DNA from: Fidelibacterota bacterium
GTDB taxonomy: Bacteria > Fidelibacterota > UBA8477 > JABMPR01
Direction of reading: 5' to 3'
Assembly: GCA_021734255.1 (NCBI GenBank)
Contig: JAIPJM010000028.1
Location: 1 to 34,785, forward strand
Length of the DNA stretch: 34,785 nucleotides
In this document: positions 656-33,904 of the stretch, piece by piece
Layout: every line of letters starts with the position of its first letter
Numbering within the stretch: position 1 is the stretch's first letter
Program-made: the position numbers and the translations under genes
Notes under the pieces: model-generated
Told to the model about the DNA's origin: nothing
Database searches by the model: none
The model's input: the letters and a program-made list of their open reading frames with translations, nothing else

Positions 656-1660
656 CTAATATGTAAATCTGACAGTTATCATTTGGACCTCATCCAGGAT
701 CCCGAATGGGATATAGGCATAGTCAACACCCAAACCGAATCTGGAGACACCGAAGCCAAATGTTGAATTTCGCTCGTCTCTGTTATGCAGGTATCCATAG
801 CGTAGATACAACATGTCCAGTAAATTATATTCGAATCCCAGATTCAGGTGTTCCGGATAGGATCTGGAATGAACCGCATCCACACTCATCATCAATGAAT
901 GGGCATCGCTGAAATTGGGAACGAAGTTGAGCAGGTCCATGGAGACCCCCATACTGAAGGTCAGGGGCAATTGAAAATTTTCATCCAGAAAGGATATCTC
1001 ATTGGAGAAATTCCGCACATTCATTCCAAAGGCAATTCCATTATAGCCAGTTTTGAACAGGGTCCCAAAATCGAAGGCATAGGCTGATGTAGAGAACTTC
1101 TGGACACCCAAACTGTCCGGTTCGTCCTGGAAATTTGGATGCACTTCAATGACACCATAGCCCAACTGCTGAGCGGCATATTTTGCCTGGCCACCAATTG
1201 AAAAGCGGTCGGACAGCTGGACGGCATACCCCAGTCCAAAGCTTAGTGCCGATGGTGTGAGTAAATTTGTTTCAACCCAGCCCGGGTCTCTTCCCCACAC
1301 CATGGTTCCCTGAATATCTCCATAATTAACAGACTGAGCGGTAACACCAAATACACCGAAGCGCCTGTTTGCGGGGCTAAATGCGATGCTCATGGTCGTA
1401 TGTTCGATGTCTGCGATCCAGGTATTCTTAGAGGCCAGCACATCGACAGATCCTTCCATCTCAGCCATTCCAGCCGGATTAAAGAATAGGGATCCTGACC
1501 TGTATGGGAGTGTCGTCATAGCACCAGCCAGAGCCGCTCCGCGTGCATCCGAGATCACACTCAGGAACTGGAAGCCGGTCTGAGCCAGCTTATTAAACTC
1601 TGCGGTAGCAGTACCCGTAAGCAGCAGGAGCAGGCAAAGTGTTAGAATTTTAATCTTCAT
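656..1660 (-). CDS. PorV/PorQ-family outer-membrane beta-barrel protein (operon A)
   Basis: The 334-residue product has a signal peptide (about residues 1-20, cleavage near TATA-EF). It shows the marks of the PorV/FadL-like barrel family: an N-terminal QTGFQFL segment, a GAALAGA stretch, the SLFFNPAGMA motif, and many alternating hydrophobic strands ending in an aromatic residue (VRFTY). In T9SS bacteria, PorV is the outer-membrane shuttle that carries CTD-bearing cargo from the translocon to the attachment complex; PorQ and related barrels are accessory. It is a paralog of the barrel at 13357-14364: both carry YGDIQGT, YAFDFGT and FQLPLTFS. An AAGGA ribosome binding site precedes the start by about 8 bases. 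It lies 22 bp after the small lipoprotein gene. The family is secure; a role in handling the cargo encoded upstream in the operon is inferred. Confidence 0.88.
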   Translation of the reverse strand: MKIKILTLCLLLLLTGTATAEFNKLAQTGFQFLSVISDARGAALAGAMTTLPYRSGSLFFNPAGMAEMEGSVDVLASKNTWIADIEHTTMSIAFSPANRRFGVFGVTAQSVNYGDIQGTMVWGRDPGWVETNLLTPSALSFGLGYAVQLSDRFSIGGQAKYAAQQLGYGVIEVHPNFQDEPDSLGVQKFSTSAYAFDFGTLFKTGYNGIAFGMNVRNFSNEISFLDENFQLPLTFSMGVSMDLLNFVPNFSDAHSLMMSVDAVHSRSYPEHLNLGFEYNLLDMLYLRYGYLHNRDERNSTFGFGVSRFGLGVDYAYIPFGILDEVQMITVRFTY

Positions 1661-1682
1661 ATTGTCATTCCTTGGCTATAGG

Positions 1683-2327
1683 TCATTCGCTTAAAAACAC
1701 GAGATCAAAGTTGTCCAGAGTGGTTGCTTCCAACCGTGCTATCTCAAATAGATAGGTCCCGGCATCCAGATCATATTCATAGCGACCCTTGATGGCCGGA
1801 ACTGGCCCAGGAAGGTTGTACAGACCCGCAATGAGTTCAGGACTCATATCGTCTTTTTCAATCTCTACCATCGTTCCTGCGCTGGTATATATCGAAGGGG
1901 CGGCATAGTGTTTCAGATAGAGAACATAAGTTCCAGCTGATGCTATTTCCAATAATTGATAGCTCAGACTATCCGCACGAATGGTCGTTGAGTAAACAGA
2001 GTCGTTCACACCGAAAGCCTCATCGCCAACGTCCTGAAATGCTGCATAGATATCGGAAATTTCCAGGCTTGAAATTGCTGTGAGAATGGTATCGATACCC
2101 CCACCAGCAAGGATCACACCGAGACCATTACCAGACGTATCCTCCAGAAGCGTCGCACTTCTCATGGTAAGACTCACTTCTAGTGTGTCCGAGAAGGCGT
2201 CGATGGCAGCAGCATCGATGGTTGAGAGTTCATAGGTCTCATCCTCAAAGTCCTCACAACTGAAAAAGACAAGGCCTAAGAACAGCGTTCCGATCATTAG
2301 ATGTATCATTTTACTATTTCTAAACAT
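1683..2327 (-). CDS. Small lipoprotein of operon A, unknown function
   Basis: I do not recognise this 214-residue protein. The start at 2327 is preferred because GGAGG lies about 7 bases before it; an in-frame ATG at 2348 has no ribosome binding site. The N-terminus is a hydrophobic signal ending FFSC, so Cys24 is the likely lipidation site, although Phe at -3 and -2 is unusual. The mature part is acidic (CEDFEDETYE) and appears rich in beta strands, with a C-terminal stretch (YEYDLDAGTYLFEIAR) like the edge of a small beta-sandwich. It lies 27 bp after the secreted T9SS-CTD protein gene and 22 bp before the PorV-like gene. Operon B has no counterpart. It could be a surface lipoprotein partner of the receptor or cargo, by analogy with SusD-position genes, but it is far too small to be SusD. 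Confidence 0.75.
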   Translation of the reverse strand: MFRNSKMIHLMIGTLFLGLVFFSCEDFEDETYELSTIDAAAIDAFSDTLEVSLTMRSATLLEDTSGNGLGVILAGGGIDTILTAISSLEISDIYAAFQDVGDEAFGVNDSVYSTTIRADSLSYQLLEIASAGTYVLYLKHYAAPSIYTSAGTMVEIEKDDMSPELIAGLYNLPGPVPAIKGRYEYDLDAGTYLFEIARLEATTLDNFDLVFLSE

Positions 2328-2354
2328 GCGTATTCCTCCACTGGTCATTCTGAA

Positions 2355-4550
2355 TTATCGAATCACCACTAGCTTGCGGATAGCCTTGTCACCATCCGGT
2401 GTTTCAAAAGTTACGATATATACACCACTGACAATGATCTGCCTGGATGAAGTGAGCAGGTCCCACGTAGCGACACCTGATCCCTCATGATCATAGCTAT
2501 AGATCTTGTCTCCCCTCTCAGTGAATACGTTTATATCACACTTTTCCGGGAGATTCCAGAATTTGACACTGTTCTGTTCTCCGATATACTGAAGTTGTGT
2601 ATTTCTTACAATGTATGGATTGGGTACAATGGTGATCCCATCAACACCTTCTGCTGGTGGTTTCAGCATGGATGCACCCTTATTCGCTCGTGTGAAAAAG
2701 GGGCTGCTTCTGAGTGGTACACCAGGAAAGAGTGAATTGGTAGAGCCATCATCATAAGCAATGATATAATAGAAATAGAGCTGTCCACGTTCGGCTGTTT
2801 TATCATAGTAGACATTCTCAGTCAGGTTGCCAGCAGATAGGCTCAGATCAGCGATCTCATAGTATGTGGAGTCATAGGAGCCCTTGGCACGATAGATCTT
2901 GTATCCATCAAAGTTGGGATGACTGATCTCCACATTATCCGCCCATTCCAGCTTGATGGCATTACCCTGAGAGGTGATCTCAAATGTGTTTGGTGGTTCC
3001 GGGTTGGGCATTGCACTGAGGTCCATATTCTTGTTCAGGTAAAGATCTCTGGCACGGCGAAATGTCTCAATGAGAGAATCTCTACTCGTATACACCCATG
3101 CGTTTTTAAAATCATCCGCATTGGTTGTGGTAGATCCGTCGGGCATGACAAGCGTTTGCGTGTCGCCCAGGATCTCGTCCTTATACCAGGTGTTTCCAAT
3201 TTCCAGATTCTGCTTGCGACTGATACCGGCAGCTGCTTCAGCAATAACGATACGCACTGTGTCGCCAGGGGCCATATTATAGGGGCCGAAAGACCAGGTC
3301 TGTGAATAACCGCCAGCAACTGAGAACTGGTCGGGGAAACCGCTTCCAACCTGCTCGGCATGACTTTGAGCCTCATGACCGGCGGCAACGAATTGCGTGT
3401 ACCCTCGTTCCATGCGTGAACTGCTAAACTGGTCATTACTGGTCGTTTCCGGATCGTTGGATTCAATTTTCCGAGTGGTGGTAGGCTGCATGGGATCATC
3501 GCTATGATCAGATGGCGATTTGTCAGCATGCAGGACGACACAGCCAGTGAACTGAGAGGCGCCCAACATACCGTCTGCCAGCCATCCCAATACATTTGGA
3601 GATCCAATATTGTCATAACTGAGGGTGGAATGGCGACCGTGCCAGGAGTAGAAAGCGCGCATATACTCACCGTCATTGTCCTGCTCATCAATACCCATTT
3701 TGCCGAATTCACTGGCAAAATCGGATGTTGTTTTCGGATTATTCGGATCTTCACCAATAACATCATTCATGGTGTTCATACCCCAGCGACAATTCTGTGG
3801 CGTTCCCCAGCCTCTACGCCCCCTGAAGTCAATGCCTGATCCTTCTACAGTACCCTCTCCTGCAACGGAATTTCTGTATTGCCAGTGAAAATAGACACCA
3901 TCCAGGGTTTGATTGTGAGCATTCCCAGCGCGGTCATACACGCCTGTATTGACGAATGTGTATTCATAAATAAAGAAGTTGTCGTAATACTGATGGGAAA
4001 AACCGTGGACCTTGCGGTCGAATGAGATCCCAGTTGATGTGTTCACCTGGTTATGGATCATACGGTCTGCTTTAAGATTGGGATCGAATCCACCGGCATC
4101 TACCAGATCGTCAAAGTCCAGGTCGGAAGCAAGCTCCCCATCCACGATCACGGTGGGGGCGGCATACTTCCCGACCATGCCAAAATCCGTAGGCATGAAT
4201 TCACTGGTGGCGATCTCAGGTCTGGGACGGGGTCCACAATGGGCAATTTTATAAGGGAACACTGTGCCTGCCAGCGGGTCATCGTAATTCCTGACAGCGA
4301 TCCACATGCCCTTGGCCGCCTGCATGTCCTGGTGGTCATAGAAGGCATTCCAGCGCATACCGAACTGCTGTTCATCGCCATAGTCTTCTTCAGGTTCAGA
4401 ACCGATAGCCTGGTAAAAGTTATGAAGACTTCCGACCTTGATCCATCGTGCTTCAGCAGCATAATTGACACTGCTGGGCAGCAGGAATACTGCCAGGAGC
4501 AGAAGACTGACCAGGCGTCTTGTACGAGATGTAGCTTGTGTCTTTTTCAT
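2355..4550 (-). CDS. Large secreted protein with FN3 and T9SS type A-like C-terminal domain (operon A)
   Basis: The 731-residue product has an N-terminal signal peptide (about 1-31). Its central region of roughly 500 residues belongs to no family I can name; it is rich in aromatic residues and Asp/Asn. Residues of about 535-625 look like a fibronectin type III domain (IKLEWADN, FDGYKIYRA, YFYYIIAYDDG). The last 93 residues start with ITIVPNPY, continue with INVFTERGDKIYSY and end SGVYIVTFETPDG...IRKLVVIR. That is the layout of a T9SS type A sorting domain, or of a FlgD-like Ig fold. It is paralogous to the protein at 8057-10174; both mature N-termini begin RWIKVGSL/RYIRIGSL. AAGGAATTTAT before the ATG is the ribosome binding site. 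It lies 23 bp after the TonB-receptor gene. Export to the cell surface is inferred; the substrate is unknown. Confidence 0.85.
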   Translation of the reverse strand: MKKTQATSRTRRLVSLLLLAVFLLPSSVNYAAEARWIKVGSLHNFYQAIGSEPEEDYGDEQQFGMRWNAFYDHQDMQAAKGMWIAVRNYDDPLAGTVFPYKIAHCGPRPRPEIATSEFMPTDFGMVGKYAAPTVIVDGELASDLDFDDLVDAGGFDPNLKADRMIHNQVNTSTGISFDRKVHGFSHQYYDNFFIYEYTFVNTGVYDRAGNAHNQTLDGVYFHWQYRNSVAGEGTVEGSGIDFRGRRGWGTPQNCRWGMNTMNDVIGEDPNNPKTTSDFASEFGKMGIDEQDNDGEYMRAFYSWHGRHSTLSYDNIGSPNVLGWLADGMLGASQFTGCVVLHADKSPSDHSDDPMQPTTTRKIESNDPETTSNDQFSSSRMERGYTQFVAAGHEAQSHAEQVGSGFPDQFSVAGGYSQTWSFGPYNMAPGDTVRIVIAEAAAGISRKQNLEIGNTWYKDEILGDTQTLVMPDGSTTTNADDFKNAWVYTSRDSLIETFRRARDLYLNKNMDLSAMPNPEPPNTFEITSQGNAIKLEWADNVEISHPNFDGYKIYRAKGSYDSTYYEIADLSLSAGNLTENVYYDKTAERGQLYFYYIIAYDDGSTNSLFPGVPLRSSPFFTRANKGASMLKPPAEGVDGITIVPNPYIVRNTQLQYIGEQNSVKFWNLPEKCDINVFTERGDKIYSYDHEGSGVATWDLLTSSRQIIVSGVYIVTFETPDGDKAIRKLVVIR

Positions 4551-4573
4551 ATAAATTCCTTGAAAGTCTTCGA

Positions 4574-7500
4574 TTAAAAATTATAAGATAGTTTAATACC
4601 AAAGAATAGATCCCGGGGACTGAGGAAGGTCAGGGACGAGTTCGGTGGATTGTATATATAAGCTTTCGAGTCCTGTGCTTCCTTGACCTCAGCATCGGAG
4701 ACCATCTTCCATGGTTCAGCATCACTATCATCAACGGGTGCGTATTTAAAATAGGCATCATTTGCTTCTGAGTAGAAATAGGTCCCCAGGTCCTCATGGA
4801 TCTCTGAGGGTGTAAACCAGGAGGTAACGTTACCGTTGACATCATACCCAAGGGCGATATCATTCAGGTATTCCATTGGCTGATAATCAACATCGTCTGG
4901 TCGGTAATCCCCATAGCGGTCATCACCGGTCACGTGCTTCATACCCAATTCATCATAGACTTCCTGCTTGAACTGCAGCGAGTTCTGGTACTTGGTATAT
5001 TCAGTACCCAGAGCCATGCCCAGTGTGGTGAAGTGTTTGAAGTTGAACAGGTTAAATGCTTCACCAAGCAGTGTGATCCCAACATTACCAATGCGGTAAG
5101 TTTTGGAGAGTCTGCTATTCACATTATAGGTGTCTTTCCAGCGCACATTGTTGATCACATCGGTCCGGTTCCCGTATTTAGCCCAGGATCCAGCTTTCCA
5201 ATATCCATTGAAAGCCAGATGCCAATCGCCAATGAGATGATCGCCGGCGATCTTCGGACCAAAGTTCTTGGGTGTATGGAAGGTCGTATTGAAATTGACC
5301 CTCGGTCTCGGTAAAGGTTTTGCCTGGACCTGACGGGAGATCAAGGAAAGCTCTTCCCTCTGTTCCGATGGATTCTGATAGAAACGTCTCACACCAAAAT
5401 ATCCAGAGCTGGCAATGGTCACGGTATAGTTGGCAAATCCAGTGAGCCAGTCACCGCGCATTTTTCTTAATTCCAGCTCGAGTCCTCTGATGTCCTGATA
5501 GAAAATATTCTCATACTTGCTATAAGAGACAGTGTTATCAGCGCTGTAATAGTTAACCGTACTGGCCTGATCGCTTTTATCCTTATAGTACCCGGATACG
5601 TGAAGCAGATATTTATCGAAGAATGAGTGATCATAACCCATCTCGTAAGCAACCGTCTTTTCCATGGGAAGTTCAGGATCGCCGAAGGATGACATTTGTC
5701 CGCCAGTTACACGACGAACGCCGAAGAGATAATCAGGATTGAATTTCTGGCGCATGTGTCCATAGTTGAAATAAAGCTTTGAGTTAACCGAGATCGGATG
5801 GGAAATTCCAATTCTGGGCAGGAAGGTCCAGCGTGCCTCAGCAGGCGCTGTTGGTATGGCATCTTCCTGTTCAGGATCATAGCTGGATGAGAACAGTGAC
5901 TTGTCATAAACATCCACATCATACCAATCCGTATTGGGATTGAAGTACTCGGCTCTTAAGCCAACAGAAGCGACCCAGCCTTCGAACTCGATCTTATCCT
6001 GGATATACATCCCCAACTGATATGGGCTTCTATGCCACTTACTGAAGGGCCGACCAGAAGGCAGCACCTTGTTGATCGCTCCATAGTTCATGTCATAATC
6101 AAAATATTCGAACTGAGCACCAGTCTTGATCTGATTATTCTGGTTGAATTGGGTCGTGTAATCAATTTTCATCTTGAATCGCGAGGTGGTAGATGTATCA
6201 CGGGCATTACTTTTCAGACCCATGTCAATGATACCGCCCACCGACTCGGAGATAAAATCAACGAAGCCATAAGGCGCTTCATCGGTCAGGAATTCACCTG
6301 CGCCGGGGAAAATATCATAGTAGGTCGTGGTATCTCGGAACGGATTGGGGTTTGAGTTATACCCTGTTGAAGAGTACTCCACGATACCTTCATAAAATGA
6401 TTTTGAATCGATGATGCCTGTTAGTTTAGCTGACAGCATCGTTGTGGAAATATCGGTGAGCGCATAGTACTCAGGTGCCAGTAATTTCCAGGATTGCTGT
6501 GAGCTGGTGCCGAAAATACTGGCAACGCCCCAGGTGCTGGAAAAATAGTCAGGTTGACCAGTTCCACTTGCTGTAGATGCTGAGATCTCTTTGCGCAGAG
6601 CAGACATAGAGAGTTTGACCTTGGGAGAAATATCTGAGGTCAGGCGCAAGGTCCCAGTCCAATCGCGGATGGCGTCACGTGACAGAGGAATGAGATACAT
6701 ACTCTGTTCACCACGGTAGGAGGCGAAGAAGCGCATATTACCCAGCGCCTTGCCAATACCGGGAACAGGTCCACCCAGACCGGCATCGATAGTATAATCC
6801 GGATCTGTGATATGTCCTGGTTTACGGGCCTGCCATTCGAATAAGCGCTGTGCACCGGCTGGTGTAATATCAATACCTTCCTTCTGCATCTGTGCGGCAA
6901 CACTGTTCCAGCCTTTAAATGTGGGGTAGCGAGCCTGGGTATAGGCATCCCAGCCTTGTGCCCACAAGCCATCTTTATTCTCATCAACAAAGGGTTCCCC
7001 TGCATCCCAGGTATCATTCCCGTTCAGATCAGTGAATGCTTCCTGACTCGTCCCCGTCCAGGCAACATCATCATCAAAATAGGGACGCAAAAAATATGAT
7101 TTTTTGTCAAAGAGTGACATGCCGAAGTGCTTAGGAGCGGGAGGACTATGACGATATGAGAAGCTGAAAGAATATCTGTCCTTACCCCCTTCGCGGGTCA
7201 CAATACTGACCAATCCAGACTGGAGGTCACTGTATTCTGCATTGAAGCCTCCGGACTGGACCATGACCTCTTTTACAGACGTTAATGATATGCCAGTGAT
7301 GGGATCACCAGTTCTATCATCCTTGAGGGTAACACCATCCACCATGAGCGTCATTTCATTGGTTCCACCCCCGCGGATGCTTAAGCCTTCCACACCAGCC
7401 TGAAGTCCCACGACTTCCGAAACACTGGAAACGGGCATATCTACCATCTCATCAGATGACATGTTGCGCTGACTGGAGGCCACATCGCGGTCCACGACGG

Positions 7501-7852
7501 GCTTACTGGCTTCGATCACAACTGACTCACCCTCAAGGGCTTGCGTCGACAGTGAAAAATTTTGAGTCGTGGTCAGATCGATCCTGACGCGGACATCCTC
7601 ATATATGATTGACGTGTAGCCAATGTAGTTTGCAGTCACATCATATGCCCCAGGTCGCACATTCAGGATCACATAGAATCCGTTCACATCGGTTGCAGCA
7701 CCCATTCCAAGTTCTGGAATAAGCACATTCACACCAATGAGAGGTTCCCCGGTCTCAGCGTCTGTGACGATACCGGTGATCTTACCCGTGGTGGCTGCCA
7801 TGACTGCTGTAGCAAGCAGACATAGAATCATGAGTGTATACAGCTTCTTCAT
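4574..7852 (-). CDS. SusC-like TonB-dependent receptor (operon A)
   Basis: The 1092-residue product has a signal peptide (1-19). Residues 22-105 form a carboxypeptidase-regulatory-like domain (GKITGIVTDAETGEPLIGVN). A TonB-box-like ESVVIEA lies near 109, followed by the plug (115-222, ending VMVQSGGFNAEY...GLVSIVTREGG) and a C-terminal 22-strand-type barrel ending in SYNF. Such receptors import large ligands, or act in export or assembly, using TonB/ExbBD energy. Residues 273-295 carry two consecutive DxNxN/DxNxDG loops (FTDLNGNDTWDAGEPFVD) that resemble calcium-binding EF or dockerin loops, inserted near the start of the barrel. The paralog at 10183-13338 has the same insert. A GAGGG ribosome binding site precedes the ATG. 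It is the first gene of operon A. No SusD is present, so polysaccharide import is not supported; the ligand is unknown. Confidence 0.92.
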   Translation of the reverse strand: MKKLYTLMILCLLATAVMAATTGKITGIVTDAETGEPLIGVNVLIPELGMGAATDVNGFYVILNVRPGAYDVTANYIGYTSIIYEDVRVRIDLTTTQNFSLSTQALEGESVVIEASKPVVDRDVASSQRNMSSDEMVDMPVSSVSEVVGLQAGVEGLSIRGGGTNEMTLMVDGVTLKDDRTGDPITGISLTSVKEVMVQSGGFNAEYSDLQSGLVSIVTREGGKDRYSFSFSYRHSPPAPKHFGMSLFDKKSYFLRPYFDDDVAWTGTSQEAFTDLNGNDTWDAGEPFVDENKDGLWAQGWDAYTQARYPTFKGWNSVAAQMQKEGIDITPAGAQRLFEWQARKPGHITDPDYTIDAGLGGPVPGIGKALGNMRFFASYRGEQSMYLIPLSRDAIRDWTGTLRLTSDISPKVKLSMSALRKEISASTASGTGQPDYFSSTWGVASIFGTSSQQSWKLLAPEYYALTDISTTMLSAKLTGIIDSKSFYEGIVEYSSTGYNSNPNPFRDTTTYYDIFPGAGEFLTDEAPYGFVDFISESVGGIIDMGLKSNARDTSTTSRFKMKIDYTTQFNQNNQIKTGAQFEYFDYDMNYGAINKVLPSGRPFSKWHRSPYQLGMYIQDKIEFEGWVASVGLRAEYFNPNTDWYDVDVYDKSLFSSSYDPEQEDAIPTAPAEARWTFLPRIGISHPISVNSKLYFNYGHMRQKFNPDYLFGVRRVTGGQMSSFGDPELPMEKTVAYEMGYDHSFFDKYLLHVSGYYKDKSDQASTVNYYSADNTVSYSKYENIFYQDIRGLELELRKMRGDWLTGFANYTVTIASSGYFGVRRFYQNPSEQREELSLISRQVQAKPLPRPRVNFNTTFHTPKNFGPKIAGDHLIGDWHLAFNGYWKAGSWAKYGNRTDVINNVRWKDTYNVNSRLSKTYRIGNVGITLLGEAFNLFNFKHFTTLGMALGTEYTKYQNSLQFKQEVYDELGMKHVTGDDRYGDYRPDDVDYQPMEYLNDIALGYDVNGNVTSWFTPSEIHEDLGTYFYSEANDAYFKYAPVDDSDAEPWKMVSDAEVKEAQDSKAYIYNPPNSSLTFLSPRDLFFGIKLSYNF

Positions 7853-8056
7853 ATAACCCTCAAATTTTCCAATTTGGTTGTCGTCAATTTTGCCGGATGA
7901 TGGTTTCTAACAGAAATCATATTTTGCTGGTCTATCAGACCACTGTCACCCCATGCTAAAATTATTACTAAATTTCGACATATCTTTTATTACTAAAGTG
8001 ACTGAATATAACCTTTCAAAGAGTTAATACACAGTTTTTATTAACTAGACCACTCC
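7853..8056 (-). promoter_or_regulatory. Regulatory region in front of operon A
   Basis: This 204-bp gap holds no gene. Three structures are visible: the inverted repeat at 8022-8046 (listed separately); an 11-bp direct repeat TTATTACTAAA at 7962-7972 and 7987-7997, spaced 25 bp start to start; and a perfect 6-bp hairpin TGGTCT-ATC-AGACCA at 7928-7942 that would sit in the 5' leader. On the minus strand TTGAAA (8014-8019) is a possible -35 box. No convincing -10 hexamer follows at 16-18 bp, which is compatible with an activated promoter but does not prove one. No terminator hairpin follows the stop codon of the operon B gene at 8057, so some readthrough from operon B is possible. Confidence 0.5.
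8022..8046. promoter_or_regulatory. Inverted repeat AGTTAATA-N9-TATTAACT, copy 1 (candidate operator)
   Basis: Two perfect 8-bp half-sites in inverted orientation are separated by 9 bp. The same 25-bp arrangement with the same half-sites occurs at 14506-14530. On the minus strand, copy 1 ends 2 bp before TTGAAA, and copy 2 ends 3 bp before TTGGTT. A repeat of this size with identical arms, an unconserved spacer and a fixed distance to a -35-like sequence is typical of a dimeric regulator site. The stem has only one G-C pair and no T-tract, so an RNA terminator is unlikely. The regulator is not identified. Confidence 0.6.
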
Positions 8057-10174
8057 TTAGCGAATAACCAGAAGTTTTCGATAAGCAGACAGGCCTTCCG
8101 GTGTCTCGAAATGAACCAGATAAACACCAGAAACCAGTGTCTGTCTGTAATCCGTATTGAGACGCCATTCATGATCACCAGAACCATCCGTGTGTTCCAT
8201 GGTCTTGATCAGATCTCCCCGTTCGGTAAATATACGGATCGTACATTGTCCCGGAACATCCAGGAACATGATCTTATCGAATTGTTCAAAATAAGCCATG
8301 GCTGTCCCAGAAGCCTTGACATTAAAGGGGTTGGGGACAATTCGAATATCTTCCAAAGTCGCCCCTGCCTGTCTTCTCAAATAGGCGCCTTGCGTCGTTT
8401 GTGTGTAAAAGCGACCGGAATGTAACTCCCCTTTCGGGTTCATTTCCGTCTGGTTATTACTGCCATCATTGAATGCGACCACGTAATAGAAGTAGGATTG
8501 ACCTCGCACCGGGGTCGTGTCCTCAAACTCATGCACAATCGTCGGATTACTGGTCCCCTTTCCGCAGGCAAATATCTCGGTATGGACGGTATCCGACTTG
8601 CCAATCGCTCTGAATAGGCGGTACCCTCCGAAGTCTGCATCAGACTCTGACGGACTGGCCAGCCAGCTCAGGATGATCCGGTCGCCACCTGATTGCACTG
8701 TAAAATTCTCCGGTGGCAAGGGTGGTTGGGGAATATTAAAGCCGCTATCCAGATTGCGGAGCGCCCGGCTGAAAGTCAGCATAATGGAGTCTTTCCCAGT
8801 GGCAACCCAGGTATTTTTATAGACATCCTCATCTCCGGTCTGTGATCCGTCGGGAAGATCAAAGGGTCCTGCATCAGCTGTATTTTCATACGCCTGAAGC
8901 CAGCGGGCACCGATGTCCTCGCACATCTGCCGACTCAAACCATTGATTCCCTCGGCTTCAATGATCACAACACTCTCACCTGGCGGAATATCAAACGGGC
9001 CATAGGTGATCATGACATTGGTACCACCGCCATCACCATGGACAGTGAAGGGATCAAGACGATGCGTAATAGACTGGAGATACTCCTCATCCATGCGCTC
9101 GTTGCCACCCTTTCCGTTATAAGGAATACCGCTGAGCATATTATAAACAGCTGTCATCCCGGGAATATCTTCCACTCGCTGATACCCTACGCTGGGGTAG
9201 GTGTCACCAGCATGCCAGCCCAGGAATGTGGGTTGATTTGCATTATCTGTGGAATCATTCCAGCTCTTATCAACATGGAGGACTGCAGACCCAGTATGAT
9301 GAGGAGAGGTCAAGCGGCCACGCTGATCAAGATCGGGAGCCCCGATATTGTCCCAGGTGACATCTTTCGATTGGCCTAAATATGACCAGCCAGCCCTGAT
9401 CCATTGCTGGATGGGATCGGCGGTGGTGATTACATCATTTTGATGGGCAGCATAATCTTCGCCACGCTTGGTGACCCAGCTATGCTTCCCATACCCCTGA
9501 CTACCATCCACCATGGCCCAGGCTGCTTCGCGACCCATGCTATAGCGGGTACCCCAACCCATCCTGACCGCTCTCAGCGTGTCATTTAACTCGATCTCTG
9601 CATCATAATCCGTATTCCCCGTGTTGGTAAAGGTATAGATCTTGATGAAGTAGTTGTCATGATACTGCTGACTAAAGGCCAGGATCGTACGGGTCTGCGT
9701 CAAGCCCATGGATGTATTTACAACATTGTTCACAATACGGTCAGGCACCTGATTTACATCGACGGTGTCGATATCTGCAGCAAAGATGGAGCTCAAATCA
9801 TCACCATCGACATAAATGCTGGGAGGTGCAAATTTCGCACTCTGTTCCATTTCCATGGGGAAAAGGGATATCCCCTCGTCACCCTGGTAGAAATAGACTG
9901 CATAATAGGAAAAATCGGTTCCCTCATCATCCTGAAAATCTTTCGCTGCCACCCAGGCCCGCTTGATAACCGAGTTATCCTGATAGGGATACTGGGCCGG
10001 CCAGCGCAGACCCTCATAATAGGTGCCCGTCCAGGCTCGCTCAGAACCGTAGGCGCTGAAATGCGATTGGAGGGATCCAATGCGGATGTAGCGTTTTTCA
10101 GCAGCAGATACCTGTGCAAAGGCTGTCGCTGTAAAAAGTGATGAAAGTATAGTAAGTATGATCAGCTTTTTCAT
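8057..10174 (-). CDS. Large secreted protein with FN3 and T9SS type A-like C-terminal domain (operon B)
   Basis: The 705-residue product starts at ATG 10174. GAGG sits 6 bases before it and overlaps the stop codon of the receptor gene; a TTG four codons upstream has no such site. The signal peptide covers about residues 1-20 (ends AFAQ). The mature N-terminus RYIRIGSL matches the RWIKVGSL of the operon A paralog. The middle is of unknown family. A fibronectin type III-like domain follows (ILSWLASP, FGGYRLFRA, SYFYYVVAFNDG). The last 96 residues form the T9SS type A/FlgD-like domain, beginning IRIVPNPF and ending SGVYLVHFETPEG...YRKLLVIR. Export through T9SS and surface attachment or release is inferred from this ending. 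It is the last gene of operon B. The protein probably pairs with the PorV-like barrel and receptor encoded just before it. Confidence 0.85.
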   Translation of the reverse strand: MKKLIILTILSSLFTATAFAQVSAAEKRYIRIGSLQSHFSAYGSERAWTGTYYEGLRWPAQYPYQDNSVIKRAWVAAKDFQDDEGTDFSYYAVYFYQGDEGISLFPMEMEQSAKFAPPSIYVDGDDLSSIFAADIDTVDVNQVPDRIVNNVVNTSMGLTQTRTILAFSQQYHDNYFIKIYTFTNTGNTDYDAEIELNDTLRAVRMGWGTRYSMGREAAWAMVDGSQGYGKHSWVTKRGEDYAAHQNDVITTADPIQQWIRAGWSYLGQSKDVTWDNIGAPDLDQRGRLTSPHHTGSAVLHVDKSWNDSTDNANQPTFLGWHAGDTYPSVGYQRVEDIPGMTAVYNMLSGIPYNGKGGNERMDEEYLQSITHRLDPFTVHGDGGGTNVMITYGPFDIPPGESVVIIEAEGINGLSRQMCEDIGARWLQAYENTADAGPFDLPDGSQTGDEDVYKNTWVATGKDSIMLTFSRALRNLDSGFNIPQPPLPPENFTVQSGGDRIILSWLASPSESDADFGGYRLFRAIGKSDTVHTEIFACGKGTSNPTIVHEFEDTTPVRGQSYFYYVVAFNDGSNNQTEMNPKGELHSGRFYTQTTQGAYLRRQAGATLEDIRIVPNPFNVKASGTAMAYFEQFDKIMFLDVPGQCTIRIFTERGDLIKTMEHTDGSGDHEWRLNTDYRQTLVSGVYLVHFETPEGLSAYRKLLVIR

Positions 10175-10182
10175 TGGTCGCC

Positions 10183-13100
10183 TCAAAACTTGATTCTTAT
10201 GCCGAATGTTATCTGGCGTGGACTGAGAAAGGTCATGGACCGGATGTTCGGCATATCAATATACGCCTTATCCTCGATGAGCTGGTCAATGGTGGACTCG
10301 CTGACCTGGTCCCACCCATCGGCTGCATCATCCCATTTCCAATATGATCCACTACTTTCCTCGTAGTAGATCTCATGAGATTGGGGTGTCACCTGTACGC
10401 TGCTGAGTGAATCAGTGGCATACATCGGCCGGAATTCAGTGTCCCAATCGCGGTATTCTCCCCAGCGATCCTCACCATTCTGAAGGCCCTCTTCCCAGGG
10501 ATAATGGAGTGAATTGCTATAGGCAGTTTGGTCACGGGACCCGGCGAAGCCTGTAGAGCTTAGCCATTTTGTATCCAGCAGATTATTCACTTCCATGAAA
10601 AACTCCAGATCACCCATATTGGAGTCAAAAGTCCGTGTCAGACGGGTATCAATATTGTAGGTATCCATGCCCCGTCTTTCGAATTTCTTGTCACCCTGGA
10701 TCCAGGTCTGTTTGGCACCCATGGTGTAGCGGGCCAGGAGACTCAGGTTCCAATTGCCAAGCAGGGATACACCTGCAACGCTGGGACCAAAGTTCTTGGG
10801 CACGTGGAAGACCAGATTTGCCCGGGAATATGGCTGTGGGGTTGTCTCAGAATCTACCAGATTGATCTTTTCGAACTCCCGCTGTTCCTTGGGATCCTGA
10901 TAATACTGGGTCAAGTCAAAGAAGCCTGTACTCCTGACCATGTAGGTGAAATTCAAAAAGCCTGTGAGCCAACGGCCATTCATCTTCTGCACGGTGAACT
11001 CGATCCCACGAATATCTTCGTAGTTGTTACTCATGGGAGTGATGTAGTTGACCGAGCGGTTTACATTCGTATAGCGTACCCAGTTCGGCTGATTGGTCAC
11101 GTCCTTGTAATAAGTTGCGATATTCAGGAGATAATCAGTGAACAGACTTTGCGAATAGCCCAGTTCATAGGCAATGGTCTGCTCCAATTCCAGGCTTGGA
11201 TTTCCAATGGATGTTACCTGGCCATTGGATTCACGCTGAAGACGGAAGCGATAGGTTGACGCCGGTTCCGAATGAAAATGTCCATAGTTGAAGTAGAGTT
11301 TGGACTGATCCGTAATGGGATGAGATATTCCCAGTCTCGGACTGATGGTCCAGAAGGCTTCTGCATCCTCCTGAGGGGCTGTTTCCTCTATGTCTGCGCC
11401 AAATCCCTGGGCATAGGTGCCATCATAGGGATCCAGGAGATACACGGGGGCGTTGGGATCATTGTACTCAGCCCGCAACCCGATATTCGCGATGAATCCT
11501 TCATACTCAAGCTTGTCCTGTACATACAGGGACAGACTGTAGGGTGGCCGATCATAGATCTGCGTTCTGCGCCAGGTATCTTTGTCACTATCCGCAAATG
11601 AACGAATAGCCAGATCGGTATATTTGAACAACAGACCAGCCTTCAACTGATTCCTGTTGTTGATCTGATTGGTATAATCCGCTTTTAAGGTATGGGTCTG
11701 TATGACACTGCTATCTCGACCTATGTTCATCCATTCCCCACCATTATAGCCATAAGGCGCTTCATCGCGCCATACCCCAGGCGATATCTCAAATAATTCA
11801 TCAGAACGAGCGTCAGTCTCGTAGGTCCAGTACTTGCTATGCAGGTACTGGTAGATCACTTCGATGAATTGACTGTTAGAGAACATGTGGTTCACTTTCA
11901 GTCCCACGTTGGACCGGTAGATATCTGAGGGACTAAAGTATCCTGGCATGAACAGGACATTTGACCCACCGCTGACCAGATTGGCGACGCTCCAGGTGGA
12001 ACTGAGTACTGAACCCGTTGGCGTCGTTGTCCAGTTATAAGGGCTGGCCGATTCGTCTGTTGATACCTGGCCAGTCATCGTGAGTTTTGTCTGAGCTGAG
12101 ATATCTGCATTCAATTTCAGTCGTGTGGTACTGGACGAATATCCGTCTCTGGATAGCGGCACAACAAAAGCACTATAGGAATTCTGGTGACTCAGGTAGA
12201 AGCGCAGATTCCCAAAACCATATAATCCAGGTACCGGACCACCAAAACCAAAATCCAGCACATGATCCGGCTCTTCGATAAAGCCGACTCGCCGGTGCTT
12301 CCAGAGGAATTCCCGCTGAGCTTCACTCGGGGTCAGGTCATTGCTGGGGTCGCCATCATTCAGGGTGACCAGAGAGCGGGCATTCCAACCTTCAAAGCTG
12401 ATGTTTTGCTCCTTGGTATAGGGATCCCAACCGGTCCATTCACCATCACCATTATAGTCAACAAACGGTTCACCAATGTCCCACTCAAAGTTGTTATTCA
12501 CATCTGTAAAATCTTCGCCATCGGTTCCAAGCCATGCCACGGCATCATCCAGGTAGGGTCTCAGATAATAGGAATCCTTGGCGTAAGGAGATATCCCATA
12601 ATTTTTCGGCGCAGCAGGTGTATGATAGTAGGTCAGCGAACCCTTATACTTATTATGACCACCCTCGGCAGTCACCACATTGATGATACCGGAGCGGATG
12701 TTGCCATATTCGGCATTGAATCCACCAGACTGTACCTGGATCTCCTCCACTGAATTCAGTGAAAGGGCGATAGTGGGACTATTGGAACGGCCATCACTCA
12801 ACTGGAAACCATCCACAATAAATGCGGTTTGCGCTGTACTTCCACCTCTGACAGAGACACCGGAGACGCCTGCCTGCAAGCCAACAACACTACTGATGGA
12901 TGCCAGGGGCAAGTCCTTGATCGTCTCTTCCCCCACATATAGCTGACTGGCTGAGAGATCTTTGACCACGGTGGGTCGTGTGGCCGTGACCTGAACCTCT
13001 TCCATTCCCAGGACCTCAGAGCTCATGGTTTGATTAATGGTAGTTGTCTGCTCCATGGCTACGACGACTTGCTCGACGACGACGGTGGTATAACCGATCA

Positions 13101-13338
13101 TCATAAAGCGCAGGGTATATCTTCCGGGCGGGATGTTAAGGATGAAGTATTCTCCATCAACCCCACTGGCAGCGCCAACGCCTAACTCCTCGACAACCAC
13201 ATTCACGCCGATCAAGCCTTCATCCGATTCAGAATCCGATATCACACCGGCGATCTTACCGGTCTGACCGGCAAAAATGGACGTTGCAACCAGAAGTAGG
13301 ATGCAGATAAGACTTAAACTTTTTGAAAATTTCATCAT
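10183..13338 (-). CDS. SusC-like TonB-dependent receptor (operon B)
   Basis: The 1051-residue product has a signal peptide (about 1-23). It continues with a carboxypeptidase-regulatory-like domain (27-108, GKIAGVISDSESDEGLIGVN), a TonB-box-like EEVQVTA at 113-119, a plug domain to about 225 (SVEEIQVQSGGFNAEYGNI) and a barrel ending FGIRIKF. It is a paralog of the receptor at 4574-7852: shared blocks include SGGFNAEY, the acidic insert FTDVNNNFEWDIGEPFVD (277-294) followed by YNGDG, and the terminal LSPR...FGI. GGAGAGGAG precedes the tandem ATG ATG start, so either Met may be used. It lies 18 bp after the PorV-like gene and 8 bp before the secreted protein gene. No SusD-like partner is present, so the transported or assembled ligand is unknown. 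Confidence 0.92.
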   Translation of the reverse strand: MMKFSKSLSLICILLLVATSIFAGQTGKIAGVISDSESDEGLIGVNVVVEELGVGAASGVDGEYFILNIPPGRYTLRFMMIGYTTVVVEQVVVAMEQTTTINQTMSSEVLGMEEVQVTATRPTVVKDLSASQLYVGEETIKDLPLASISSVVGLQAGVSGVSVRGGSTAQTAFIVDGFQLSDGRSNSPTIALSLNSVEEIQVQSGGFNAEYGNIRSGIINVVTAEGGHNKYKGSLTYYHTPAAPKNYGISPYAKDSYYLRPYLDDAVAWLGTDGEDFTDVNNNFEWDIGEPFVDYNGDGEWTGWDPYTKEQNISFEGWNARSLVTLNDGDPSNDLTPSEAQREFLWKHRRVGFIEEPDHVLDFGFGGPVPGLYGFGNLRFYLSHQNSYSAFVVPLSRDGYSSSTTRLKLNADISAQTKLTMTGQVSTDESASPYNWTTTPTGSVLSSTWSVANLVSGGSNVLFMPGYFSPSDIYRSNVGLKVNHMFSNSQFIEVIYQYLHSKYWTYETDARSDELFEISPGVWRDEAPYGYNGGEWMNIGRDSSVIQTHTLKADYTNQINNRNQLKAGLLFKYTDLAIRSFADSDKDTWRRTQIYDRPPYSLSLYVQDKLEYEGFIANIGLRAEYNDPNAPVYLLDPYDGTYAQGFGADIEETAPQEDAEAFWTISPRLGISHPITDQSKLYFNYGHFHSEPASTYRFRLQRESNGQVTSIGNPSLELEQTIAYELGYSQSLFTDYLLNIATYYKDVTNQPNWVRYTNVNRSVNYITPMSNNYEDIRGIEFTVQKMNGRWLTGFLNFTYMVRSTGFFDLTQYYQDPKEQREFEKINLVDSETTPQPYSRANLVFHVPKNFGPSVAGVSLLGNWNLSLLARYTMGAKQTWIQGDKKFERRGMDTYNIDTRLTRTFDSNMGDLEFFMEVNNLLDTKWLSSTGFAGSRDQTAYSNSLHYPWEEGLQNGEDRWGEYRDWDTEFRPMYATDSLSSVQVTPQSHEIYYEESSGSYWKWDDAADGWDQVSESTIDQLIEDKAYIDMPNIRSMTFLSPRQITFGIRIKF

Positions 13339-13356
13339 TTAGCTCCTCTCCTGGTC

Positions 13357-14364
13357 TCAGAATGAAAAACGGGCTGAAACTCGGTGAACCTCGCTCCACA
13401 CCCCTTTTGGTGTATAGGCATAATCAAATGCCAGTCCGATCACATTTACTCCGACCCCAAAACTCATATCATTCTGGTCGAAGCTGTCCGTGTTCTCATC
13501 TTCACTTGAATAGAACCCTGTTCGTAGAGCCAGCATATTGATAGGTCGATATTCCAAACCCAGTTTTACCTGCTCAGGATGCGAGCGATAGTGAAGCGCA
13601 TCCAGGGTGCACAGGAGTTGCTGACCACCAACCCGATCCCTTATCAAGTCAAACATATCCATACCGATTCCCAGCGAGAAAGTCAGGGGAAGCTGAAAAT
13701 CCTCTTCTTCAAAGGTGACCGGATTGGAAAAATTCCTGAAAGACATGCCGAATGCCAGACTGTGCCAGCCTGTTTTAAAAATTGTTCCGAAATCAAAAGC
13801 ATAGGAGGAGGCATTGTGGTTCTTGACCGTATCCGGTAGTCCATTTTCATCTGGATAGATGCTTCTGCCATAATCAAGACCGACATATTTGACCTGTCCC
13901 CCGACCGAAAATTTATCAGAGAGTGTCTTGGCATATCCCAAACCCATGGCCACTGCGCCAGGTCGCAGGATCTCTGTGTCAAGATAGCCTTTCTCGTTAT
14001 CCCAAACTGTGGTACCCTGAATATCACCATAGTCAACCATCATCAGTGAGACCCCAAATACACCATACTTGCCAGCTGCAGGGTTGATGGCCGCTGTGAA
14101 CAGGTTGTGGGTTATATCAGCGATCCATTGGTTCTGACTGGCCGTAAAATCGATACGAGACGCCATCCTGGCCATGCCTGCAGGATTAAAAAGAAGGGAA
14201 GCACTATTCATTTCCAGGATAGTGACGGCCTCCGCCATACCAGCCCCCCAGGCATCGGTAGCCACACTAAGAAACTGAGCACCCGTCTGCCCCAGTTTCT
14301 TCTGAGCCATGCCCGTCGACAGGGTCAGGCCAGCAATTAGAATAATTATTAGCGATTTCTTCAT
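13357..14364 (-). CDS. PorV/PorQ-family outer-membrane beta-barrel protein (operon B)
   Basis: The start is set at ATG 14364, because GGAGG lies about 6 bases before it and MKKSLIIILIAGLTLSTGMA is a clean signal peptide; an upstream in-frame ATG at 14406 has neither. The 335-residue product carries the family marks: LGQTGAQFL near the mature N-terminus, SLLFNPAGMARM, VDYGDIQGT, YAFDFGT, FQLPLTFS and an aromatic end (SARFSF). It is clearly a paralog of the barrel at 656-1660. Here the barrel gene comes first in the operon, whereas in operon A it is fourth. By family knowledge PorV-like barrels escort T9SS cargo to the surface; a link to the CTD protein at 8057-10174 is inferred from the operon. 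Confidence 0.88.
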   Translation of the reverse strand: MKKSLIIILIAGLTLSTGMAQKKLGQTGAQFLSVATDAWGAGMAEAVTILEMNSASLLFNPAGMARMASRIDFTASQNQWIADITHNLFTAAINPAAGKYGVFGVSLMMVDYGDIQGTTVWDNEKGYLDTEILRPGAVAMGLGYAKTLSDKFSVGGQVKYVGLDYGRSIYPDENGLPDTVKNHNASSYAFDFGTIFKTGWHSLAFGMSFRNFSNPVTFEEEDFQLPLTFSLGIGMDMFDLIRDRVGGQQLLCTLDALHYRSHPEQVKLGLEYRPINMLALRTGFYSSEDENTDSFDQNDMSFGVGVNVIGLAFDYAYTPKGVWSEVHRVSARFSF

Positions 14365-14505
14365 ACCATATCCTCCAAGGTCAGACCGTATGGATGTGAT
14401 CGTCATAATGACAAAAAAATGCCCTTTCAGCTCAAAACAGCCTTAAACGCTTCAATAATGGGGCACCATAATAAATCTTACATTGTGCAAAATATAAACC
14501 AATAG

Positions 14506-26378: not shown

Positions 26379-27317
26379 TTAATAGATCTCGTTGGTCAAA
26401 CAGTGAACCGAGCCACCGGCGTAGCGAAAACTACTCAGCGGCGTGACGTGGCGTTCGATCCCGATGGATTCCAGATATGCTTCAACCCCTGGGGTGTTGA
26501 ATTCACTGCTGTTCACCATGACTCCGGGAGCGATGAGTGCATTGACAGCGTAATCCCCTAAGGCATCGCCTACCCCAGACGAGTCAAGCGGTGAGATCTC
26601 TATGATCTTAACACCAAGATCCTTCAAGACGGTCCGACTTTCAGCTGTCAAACTATCCAGGGTCACAATGATCGCAGCCAAACAGTTATCTGCAGTGAGT
26701 ACGGGTGTGAGAACGGTATCAAGATGGTATCCATCAGATTCGATCAGGATATAATGATCGGGTCTAATGATCTCCCGGACAAAATCATGCCCCTGCTTAT
26801 TGGATCTGGAGAGCCCGCCGAAATAATAGTTGCCCTGACAAGTCTCAATGTAGTTGATGTCACCACCCTCCAGAAAAGCACCTTCTGGCAAGGTGACAAC
26901 TGTCTTGCCCAGCTTGGACTCGATAAGCTTGGTGTGGTACTCGCCTTCCAGACTGCGATCTTTGACAGAGAAGCGACTTTTGATCCAGATGCTGCGAAAA
27001 ATAAGTCCAGAGTCACGAATGAATACAGCATCATGGTAGAGGCTATCCGGGCGGTTCAGGGCTTCAGGGAAAGGTACGATGTGCAAGTGAAATCCGGCCA
27101 GGAGTAATGTATCAACGAAATCGAGCCACTCCCGTCGGAGTAAATCCTGATCTGGTATGATACCATGCTTATTAGCATACTCTGTGGCGAAATTGATGCT
27201 GGATTCGGTTTCTCCCTGATGCAGGGGATAGCCTTTATGCCACATGCCCTTGACCTTATCGGTGACCGGGGCCAGCCCCATGAGTATTATCTCTCTATTA
27301 TTTGCCTGATTTGTCAT
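26379..27317 (-). CDS. Amidinotransferase-fold hydrolase, DDAH/arginine deiminase-like
   Basis: The 312-residue protein has the guanidino-modifying enzyme signature: FIRDSG (99-104), EGGDIN (150-155), a catalytic His in GYHLD (His198) and the catalytic Cys in GGSVHCLTNE (Cys306). Enzymes of this fold hydrolyse arginine, methylarginine or related amidino compounds through a cysteine thiouronium intermediate. Length and the HCLT ending fit dimethylarginine dimethylaminohydrolase-like or citrullinase-like members; the substrate cannot be decided from sequence. It is cytoplasmic, with no signal peptide. It stands alone: convergent with rpsT and divergent from the UVR-motif gene. Confidence 0.83.
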   Translation of the reverse strand: MTNQANNREIILMGLAPVTDKVKGMWHKGYPLHQGETESSINFATEYANKHGIIPDQDLLRREWLDFVDTLLLAGFHLHIVPFPEALNRPDSLYHDAVFIRDSGLIFRSIWIKSRFSVKDRSLEGEYHTKLIESKLGKTVVTLPEGAFLEGGDINYIETCQGNYYFGGLSRSNKQGHDFVREIIRPDHYILIESDGYHLDTVLTPVLTADNCLAAIIVTLDSLTAESRTVLKDLGVKIIEISPLDSSGVGDALGDYAVNALIAPGVMVNSSEFNTPGVEAYLESIGIERHVTPLSSFRYAGGSVHCLTNEIY

Positions 27318-33800: not shown

Positions 33801-33904
33801 GCTTCACCCATCCTACTGACAGTCTGGAATGGCGGGAGCGCTGGATCAAAGAAGAAGAGCGTAAAGACAAGTGGTGGTATAAGCTGCTGCATCGGTCTGA
33901 TTAA
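30893..33904 (+). CDS. NagZ-type GH3 beta-N-acetylhexosaminidase fused to a serine beta-lactamase-like domain, lipoprotein
   Basis: The 1003-residue product has a lipoprotein signal ending FVAGC (Cys22). Residues of about 40-370 are a GH3 NagZ domain: KHFPGHGDTQSDSH (211-224) carries the Asp/His acid-base loop, and Asp298 in IITDAM is the expected nucleophile. A GH3 C-terminal sandwich-like part follows. From about 640 to 960 lies a class C beta-lactamase/penicillin-binding-like domain with SVTK (Ser670, Lys673), Tyr-Ser-Asp at 765-767 instead of YxN, and HTG at 918-920. The predicted role is cleavage of muropeptides in the periplasm: the first domain removes GlcNAc, the second acts on peptide or ester bonds. 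This fusion is known in Bacteroidota relatives. The ROK regulator is probably its controller. Confidence 0.92.
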   Translation: MRKNNYTIPVVAAALLLFVAGCSSPAPVVEASPWAQATLKKLSLREKIGQMMVYTMMLNYYDAESEKWQEIEKILGSDGIGSLHVWGGDVPSAYALVNEMQSRSKVPMFIQADLEYGIKSRFKMGTEIPWPMAQGATGNPDMAYAAGRITAEEGRALGINLALAPIVDVNNNPLNPIINTRAYGEDPAQVIAYATRFMDGLHDGGMLATAKHFPGHGDTQSDSHTKLAQIPEDADRLWSIELRPFQAMIDAGVDMVMIGHLDAGKFQMEPGVPSSLSPFWLQDILRHKMGFKGVIITDAMAMGGITRGYSDRFALIQTIKAGSDLIIQNNDYIASIDYVEEAVKDGQLSEARIDESVLRILTLKSKLGLDKKKTLDLDRIQREIGSESNLEMADLIMQSALTLVREGEQSFFPIKKSEAEPLYVIDIRDRNNDRRATEVTNGLKEQIDPLINFTMDNSLTPEEYQTILAEIPDSALVLVNVISQVKMNKNRVFLVQAHIDFINALMKKTERMLVVGLGTPFVVQSFPDIPAYLCTYSNQTGMQRAVVKGLLGQVPITGTLPVNIPGIADMGHGITKLADPLPWKVTEVPGYQPKPAERNELLFHVSPEEVGADPGMVMPHLHQALEEKAWPGGVLLAAKNGKIFFHEYFGTHEYGGEQHTYRGDIFDLASVTKVIATTSAAMKLYEEGKLDLDTTVVSYLPAFTGPDSVTTEMKNQITVKQLLTHTAGLKPFKRFYQMEAPSRAALLDSVFQSELDTLPGTKYRYSDIGLITLGKVIEAIAGTDLKTYTDSVIFTPLAMTQTGYLPDEDPNWIVPTEYSEFDSGFVHGHVHDENSYSLGGVAGHAGLFSNARDLARFAQMMLNGGTLGDTTIFKPETIALFTRRANMLEEENSRCLGWDSPHNGSSGGVYLSKNSFGHTGFTGTSIWIDPDNQMFVILLTNAVHPDRRYKYPNYFDWRQRIHAAVYESIGFTHPTDSLEWRERWIKEEERKDKWWYKLLHRSD

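Follow-up and report, generated by a model that had tools for sequence, protein, structure and literature searches.

The window analysed here is the whole of one contig (C53; 34,785 bases) from a 2.87-Mb genome of 59 contigs (91% complete), the proteins of which cluster with Neomarinimicrobiota, the same group as Fidelibacterota in trees and in the NCBI taxonomy. On its minus strand, at 656–14364, downstream of polA and separated from it by 271 nucleotides (nt), lie two triads, A and B, each made up of a TonB-dependent receptor, a secreted cargo protein with a C-terminal domain (CTD) like those of the type IX secretion system (T9SS), and an outer-membrane barrel of the PorV/PorQ family (Table 1). 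The linkage of this CTD class, barrel subfamily and TonB receptor in one cassette is strong across phyla and, as far as the literature was searched, undescribed: no description of the cassette was found in the open-licence PMC literature as covered by titles and abstract openings, subscription papers and preprints lying outside that scope.

Two paralogous modules and their families

Read in the direction of transcription, the genes are barrel B, receptor B and cargo B and, 204 nt further on, receptor A, cargo A, a small lipoprotein, barrel A and an IPT/TIG lipoprotein; all other intergenic gaps within the run measure 6–23 nt. An original prediction, made from the letters of the window alone, had proposed two paralogous modules on one strand with differing gene order, and all six genes were confirmed: the receptors share 40% identity over 1086 columns (E = 0.0), the cargos 33% (E = 1e-105) and the barrels 46% (E = 2e-109), and the paralogy of A and B is well above chance. 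The shared blocks named there (YGDIQGT, FQLPLTFS, SGGFNAEY, a DxNxN insert, the GSL N-termini and the RKLVVIR/RKLLVIR ends) are visible in the alignments. Promoter and terminator scans of the locus gave signals near or below chance.

Table 1. Genes of the two modules and the adjoining lipoprotein genes in the window
Feature	Position	Strand	Basis
Barrel B, PorV/PorQ-family outer-membrane barrel	13357..14364	-	NF033709 178.4 bits (cut-off 90); Pfam PorV 30.6 (cut-off 27)
Receptor B, TonB-dependent, with N-terminal CarbopepD_reg_2 and plug	10183..13338	-	Pfam; 40% identity to receptor A
Cargo B, secreted, cassette-class T9SS CTD (last 112 residues: 8060-8395)	8057..10174	-	33% identity to cargo A
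Receptor A, TonB-dependent	4574..7852	-	CarbopepD_reg_2, Plug and OMP_b-brl_3 over Pfam cut-offs
Cargo A, secreted: β-super-sandwich-like N-domain, fibronectin-III-like domain, cassette-class T9SS CTD (last 112 residues: 2358-2693)	2355..4550	-	AlphaFold2, fold searches, fn3 and weak PorZ-CTD profile matches
Small lipoprotein between cargo A and barrel A	1683..2348	-	Lipobox-like cysteine invariant in 14 aligned members
Barrel A, PorV/PorQ-family outer-membrane barrel	656..1660	-	NF033709 166.1 bits (cut-off 90); Pfam PorV 19.1, under cut-off 27
IPT/TIG lipoprotein, truncated by contig end	1..638	-	Pfam TIG 44 bits; relatives have a gene of ~400-430 amino acids (aa) after the barrel

Both barrels pass the PorV/PorQ family model NF033709, barrel B having been scanned in a longer frame that begins at an alternative start, the ATG at 14406, and both fall short of the canonical PorV model NF033710 (A 61.0 and B 82.3 bits, cut-off 250) and the canonical PorQ model NF033711 (77.7 and 72.0 bits, cut-off 220). 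The PorP model (cut-off 90.55) gave 18.9 bits for barrel A and no match for barrel B. The receptors score 26.8 and 31.8 bits against Plug (Pfam cut-off 23.9), so that with CarbopepD_reg_2 also over its cut-off the earlier naming of PorV-like barrels and TonB receptors holds; a receptor profile searched against PDB sequences gave no match at E ≤ 0.001. No SusD family, which that reader had also found wanting, appeared in Pfam scans of the window and some neighbour proteins, no genome-wide SusD search having been made. The small lipoprotein and the two cargos had no match in Pfam scans. Both receptors (4574–7852 and 10183–13338) carry a DxNxN-type insert (FTDxNxN..EPFVDxNxDG), possibly calcium-binding, that the majority consensus for 47 related receptors lacks.

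The cargos had been predicted to end in a T9SS CTD, and this stands in a modified form: the domain is T9SS-like and belongs to a divergent class, marginal as a standard type A CTD. Against the standard type A model TIGR04183 (cut-off 23), cargo A scored 19.7 bits in one scan and 23.7 in another, and cargo B gave no match at E ≤ 0.01 in one scan and 17.9 in another. The type B model TIGR04131 matched neither the window proteins nor any of 50 cargos scanned (the two of the window and 48 of 60 found in the loci described below; alignment A4). A plain type A or type B CTD was rejected on these scores, marginal for type A, together with the separate score class reported below, in which the CTD of cargo B reaches 135 bits with a profile (A9) that includes cargo B itself.

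Recurrence in the genome and across phyla

A search of the window's own genome with the PorV_fam profile gave 19 places, 12 of them over the cut-off, and a cassette CTD lies within 10 kb of 11 of these 12 barrels; beside them lie relatives matched by a profile of the two receptors and by one of the two cargos. Gene maps of the fetched stretches give the order receptor–cargo–barrel on contigs C38, C14, C31, C17, C50, C35 and C27 and the same three parts in a different order on C26, and a second cargo–barrel pair stands at the start of C17, where its receptor would fall off the contig. The window carries two of about ten cassettes in its genome, which goes beyond what its sequence alone could show to the earlier reader, and a double module peculiar to this locus was rejected on that count. 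The twelfth barrel, on C5, is canonical PorV-like, scoring 213.7 bits with the PorV model (cut-off 250). Next to it (L070:12209-16317) is a protein that has a standard CTD and resembles the M6-like inactivated metalloprotease family (304.5 bits, cut-off 600).

The genome encodes SprA (735 bits, with neighbours in frame), PorU (674 bits), TonB (TonB_C), ExbB (MotA_ExbB) and two ExbD, and 71 places exceed the standard type A CTD cut-off, two of them cassette cargos. Core T9SS genes, the absence of which would have spoken against the original prediction, are in this way present as far as SprA and PorU go; the PorM (GldM) model was silent in this genome and the PorN (GldN) model in nine genomes, this one included, no control genome matching either, and PorK and PorL were not searched. 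Genes flanking two of the own-genome cassettes resemble chaperone-isomerases of the SurA/PPIC type (L067:13368-15017, Rotamase_2 over cut-off; L066:14104-15612, SurA_N below cut-off). Elsewhere in the window are a 1003-aa protein in which a GH3 glycosidase is fused to a beta-lactamase-family domain (30893–33904, plus strand) and a 312-aa protein with a weak, sub-cut-off match to dimethylarginine dimethylhydrolase (26379–27317, minus strand).

Beyond this genome, a scan based on the receptor alignment and taking one genome per species gave 49 loci, titled Neomarinimicrobiota, KSB1, Ignavibacteria, Melioribacter, Calditrichia, Balneolaceae, Salinivenus, a few Bacteroidota/Bacteroidetes metagenome-assembled genomes and a few unassigned; the phyla among them are Fidelibacterota/Neomarinimicrobiota, KSB1, Ignavibacteriota, Calditrichota, Balneolota and Rhodothermota. 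All three genes are present in 45 of the 49, namely 43 recognised with hidden Markov models (HMMs) of the window genes and two (L088 and L120) that had appeared to be without a cargo, which is present under an antisense open reading frame (ORF) call that masked it, and the other four (L095, L117, L126 and L127) are truncated by contig ends. The linked distribution on which the original prediction depended is found at each of the 49 loci that no contig end cuts. The order is mostly receptor–cargo–barrel, with barrel–receptor–cargo and receptor–barrel–cargo also occurring, and the composition is kept. The double arrangement of the window, following a polA-like 908-aa gene, is complete in L081, L082, L084 and L096. 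At many loci a lipoprotein of ~415 aa (TIG in both of two scanned) comes after the barrel, and then a protein of ~460 aa with a standard CTD. The third gene past the barrel, scanned at three loci, is a GHL10 glycosidase at L081 and L101; at L102 it is an FG-GAP protein.

Within the phylum of the window the CTD class was found in 61 of 61 genomes (its own and 60 drawn) at E ≤ 1e-14, in 1–22 copies each. Three genomes of 0.9–1.0 Mb, 96–98% complete, retain exactly one cassette CTD; in L272 the single cassette is receptor–cargo–barrel, its barrel scoring 146 bits with the cassette-barrel HMM (below the 200-bit line of the survey that follows) and yet exceeding the cut-off of PorV_fam; the cargo of L273 is truncated by the contig end. 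Because the class is present throughout the phylum genomes sampled and one copy is kept at 0.9–1.0 Mb, the retention suggests a function that is hard to lose. The cargo of these single cassettes (L272:8863-16392 and L273:8874-10341) has the C-terminus LKLAVIQPEQRLDVY, near that of the own-genome cargo at L065:147-2786, and looks like a member that is retained widely.

The association was also surveyed from the side of the barrel, in 100 stretches around PorV-family genes of eight genomes that cover 102 of 106 over-cut-off genes and hold 107 barrel ORFs. The barrel and receptor HMMs were trained on the window's genome alone and the cargo HMM partly on seven cargos of the surveyed genomes. Within four same-strand genes of the 59 barrels that reach at least 200 bits with the cassette-barrel HMM, there is a cargo in 56 cases, a receptor in 53 and both in 51, compared with both in two cases for the 48 other barrel ORFs. 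Three barrels at or above 200 bits have no cargo (L215, L216 and L230), and at L216 a cassette CTD lies just past the fetched stretch.

A separate CTD class and co-inheritance of the cassette

When a profile of 26 cassette CTDs was searched against six whole genomes, the scores were bimodal: 56 matches fall at 73–144 bits and the next downward, the first of 50 weaker ones, at 49.9 bits. The strong matches lie within 10 kb of an over-cut-off PorV-family gene on the same strand in 52 of 56 cases and within 1 kb in 43, and the weaker ones are within 10 kb of such a family member in 10 of 50 and within 1 kb in three. Fifteen of the 56 were in the profile and are linked by selection; the linkage among those held out is 37 of 41. 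Three of the four unlinked strong CTDs belong to a fragmented genome (G007) and one to G003. Seen from the other side, 50 of 83 PorV-family genes in the six genomes have a cassette CTD within 10 kb, and the family also includes members of other kinds.

PorV is a member of the FadL superfamily, and the C5 barrel that resembles canonical PorV has a match to the FadL family of Pfam as well, under the cut-off. The cassette barrels could accordingly be imagined as FadL-like transporters of hydrophobic compounds, with a canonical PorV handling the cargo CTD and the linkage reflecting a shared substrate pathway. Since the barrel class is tied to one CTD class (the 52 of 56 above), and a link through substrate only would not be expected to track an export tag, this is very unlikely.

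Maximum-likelihood trees for the receptor, cargo and barrel were built from the window, a further module of its genome and 23 of the 49 loci. In all three, the A clade (window, L081, L082, L084, L096 and L083) and the B clade (window, L081, L082, L084 and L096) have the same members with support of at least 100/99, in agreement with the matching topologies that the original prediction expected of co-evolved modules, and the branching inside the two clades differs among the trees. Mirror tests were made on 58 triads from nine genomes (10 from the window's own and 48 of 53 surveyed, incomplete, short and duplicate triads having been dropped). Within-genome distances correlate for all pairs of the four parts (receptor, cargo body, CTD and barrel) at r 0.80–0.94, and at r 0.60–0.89 after deduplication or the use of ranks, with none of 1000 permutations as high in either case. 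The receptor–barrel partial correlation was 0.24 in the first run and 0.42–0.54 in all four later variants. An interaction graph drawn from partial correlations (receptor–cargo body 0.73, CTD–barrel 0.31, cargo body–barrel 0.05) was dropped, as it changed with deduplication and ranks, and in the first within-genome mirror test, on ten triads, the CTD–barrel correlation was insignificant when the two window modules were left out (177 of 2000 permutations). These tests speak for a cassette inherited and diverging as one unit, not for particular contacts among its parts.

Two points here count against the coupled function proposed below: the CTD–barrel partial correlation falls to 0.12–0.15 (52–86 of 1000 permutations) with deduplication or ranks, and block co-inheritance could be a sufficient cause of the concordance of distances. 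Weak CTD–barrel partial correlations would also suit the plain duplication of an operon block whose three products are functionally uncoupled. The composition is kept over several phyla despite reordering, which is unexpected for unselected blocks, and the barrel survey and the CTD–PorV linkage counts likewise speak against such an origin, which we regard as hardly credible.

A possible surface capture complex and its alternatives

In comparing the cassette CTD with known uncleaved CTDs, a likeness to PorZ is seen. The PorZ model NF052228 (E ≤ 0.01) matches 33 of the 50 cargos, at the CTD wherever the position of the match is shown, and TIGR04183 at the same threshold matches 22; neighbouring standard-CTD proteins match TIGR04183 in 13 of 13 cases and PorZ in none. 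Seven of the nine other own-genome cassette cargos match PorZ at the CTD, those of L062 and L063 being the two that do not. The cargo profile matches the PorZ crystal structure 5m11 weakly at the CTD (E = 0.12), and 5m11 ranks third in a fold search with cargo A, where many such matches are driven by fibronectin-like domains. Likeness to PorU was rejected as a discriminator, as the PorU model matches one of the 50 cargos versus eight of the 13 standard-CTD proteins. PorZ and PorU retain the CTD and are kept in place by PorQ and PorV, respectively (PMC5562754, PMC11285876), PorQ being the anchor of PorZ (PMC5562754). As the cassette CTD is PorZ-like, and PorZ and PorU keep theirs on PorQ and PorV, the cargos are proposed to stay on the barrels.

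Each module may be a copy of a cassette that occurs repeatedly and assembles a surface capture complex, with the barrel as dedicated shuttle and anchor and the cargo placed over the TonB receptor, a reading to which we give somewhat less than even weight. The cargo would be exported by the T9SS, through SprA, by means of its CTD and would be collected by its own PorV/PorQ-family barrel, not by a single canonical PorV. We infer that barrel and CTD bind and that no cleavage follows, so that the cargo would remain docked through an uncleaved PorZ-like CTD, as PorZ is on PorQ and PorU on PorV. Its displayed N-terminal part would work in contact with the TonB-dependent receptor of the same operon, much as SusD does over SusC; the cargo would bind a substrate, which in the subfamily of the window is most likely a glycan or part of one, and the receptor would import it with TonB energy. 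The result would be a SusCD-like uptake unit with a surface subunit held by a protein barrel and not by lipid.

The same genes are open to a reading in which the barrel is a cognate shuttle and nothing more: it would collect the cargo from SprA, PorU would cleave the CTD, and the cargo would be released or attached elsewhere, the receptor being merely co-regulated, for instance in importing what the released cargo liberates. PorU is present in the genome, ordinary cargo CTDs are generally cleaved in P. gingivalis (PMC11285876), and the CTD model of cargo A is without the extra ribbon of PorU and PorZ. The CTD resembles that of PorZ and not the standard class, however, and the receptor adjoins most cargos despite changes of order, which suggests more than co-regulation; we judge a shuttle of this kind unlikely, with an appreciable chance left to it.

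As for the substrate of the proposed capture complex, the AlphaFold2 model of cargo A (predicted local distance difference test, pLDDT, 85.3; predicted TM-score, pTM, 0.83) contains an N-domain that, modelled alone (pLDDT 83.5, pTM 0.89), matches in fold searches GH15 dextran dextrinase, cyclic glucan synthase and enzymes of GH94 (phosphorylases) and GH116. The part shared with these structures we take to be the β-super-sandwich, and the matches to the predicted model name a fold type at most. These matches, together with the GHL10 gene near the barrel in relatives, are the hint of a carbohydrate substrate. They also bear on a further possibility, that the receptor serves export or signalling and not uptake, TonB energy driving a conformational or assembly step of the cargo, or a ligand bound to the cargo giving a signal. 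The three genomes of 0.9–1.0 Mb that keep one cassette CTD, with a receptor where the stretch is whole, and the partial correlation retained by receptor–barrel distances would suit it. Glycan-related neighbours and the fold matches point instead to uptake, and the scan of a few neighbours, a small sample, brought up no evident signalling partner; we regard this role as distinctly unlikely.

Several observations weigh against a capture complex of one barrel, one receptor and one cargo. The matches to PorZ are partial and stay under the cut-off of 260 set for the whole protein, and 17 of the 50 cargos have none. Uncleaved CTDs of PorU and PorZ have an extra β-ribbon after the fifth strand (PMC11285876), which does not show in cargo A as modelled by AlphaFold2, where the CTD has seven strands. 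The receptors do not reach the SusC/RagA model (cut-off 368), receptor A scoring 51.7 bits and receptor B giving no match. Fold matches of the N-domain have TM-scores of ~0.3 and a high root-mean-square deviation, and include YidC, which is not a carbohydrate enzyme. The other own-genome cassette cargos give no Pfam match over cut-off except propeller repeats in that of C38, and one of them has a sub-cut-off FlgD_ig match. A receptor of the same class on contig C33 has neither cargo nor barrel on its visible side and a contig end on the other. Two receptor–cargo pairs surround one barrel at nine Neomarinimicrobiota-type loci (L085, L086, L089, L090, L110, L112, L119, L122 and L124), at which a TIG-type lipoprotein follows the second cargo and the stretch stops, a further barrel being possible beyond; L113 and L123 likewise have two pairs with a single barrel up to the end of the stretch, and L185 and L234 have two cargos beside one barrel. 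Pairing at 1:1:1 is the rule and is not universal. Taken together, the earlier interpretation is partly supported: the dedicated machine it described holds well as a co-inherited module, its strict 1:1:1 composition fails in places, and the physical service of barrel and receptor to the cargo is conjectural.

Among known systems, PorZ–PorQ and PorU–PorV of P. gingivalis (PMC5562754) resemble the proposed complex in that a T9SS-exported protein with an uncleaved CTD is held by a PorV/PorQ-family barrel, and it is PorZ's CTD that the cassette CTD most often matches, retention being presumed here. They differ in forming one sortase complex without a TonB receptor, whereas the cassettes number about ten paralogs in the window's genome, most with a receptor, and in the CTD ribbon already mentioned. 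The nearest tested precedent for dedicated barrels is the type B CTD with PorP/SprF-like shuttles of F. johnsoniae and P. gingivalis, where several CTD cargos per genome often have next to them a barrel of their own as shuttle or anchor, the pairs being specific apart from some crosstalk (PMC12618676, PMC9143113); the CTD family and the barrel family are different, and that scheme has no TonB receptor. A likeness to canonical type A cargos with PorV lies in the seven-strand CTD of the model and in SprA and PorU in the genome, but the cassette CTD is a separate class, and the genome has one canonical PorV-like barrel (C5) and eleven cassette barrels. The SusC–SusD systems of Bacteroidota comprise many paralogous pairs of a TonB-linked receptor and a surface protein. 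Such pairs are abundant (PMC12611786), and the CarbopepD_reg_2 domain on the receptor is a point of likeness; the SusC model is not reached by the cassette receptors, and the cassette surface subunit would be exported by the T9SS and held by a barrel, not a lipoprotein. A link to the Bacteroidota β-barrel assembly machinery (BAM) complex was looked for in PMC12611786, and the passages covered hold nothing resembling the cassette.

The T9SS has been called exclusive to Bacteroidota, with all type A CTDs recognised by PorV (PMC12618676), and has elsewhere been allowed for the Bacteroidetes–Chlorobi–Fibrobacteres superphylum (PMC12421860). Several other phyla are seen here to carry many PorV-family barrels, more than half of which sit with their own CTD class and mostly with a TonB receptor. 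It is possible, though somewhat less likely than not, that these represent a class of TonB-coupled surface machines across phyla of the Fibrobacteres–Chlorobi–Bacteroidetes (FCB) group, in which a dedicated PorV/PorQ barrel would draw its cargo out of the T9SS translocon and then hold it permanently on a receptor as the outer subunit. If true, this would be a third way, beside lipid anchors and covalent attachment to lipopolysaccharide, of giving receptors surface-exposed binding subunits. Should the barrels be cognate anchors, the SusCD logic would gain an independent counterpart built by the T9SS, and surface proteins could be matched to their receptors from a genome sequence, in groups represented here chiefly by metagenome assemblies.

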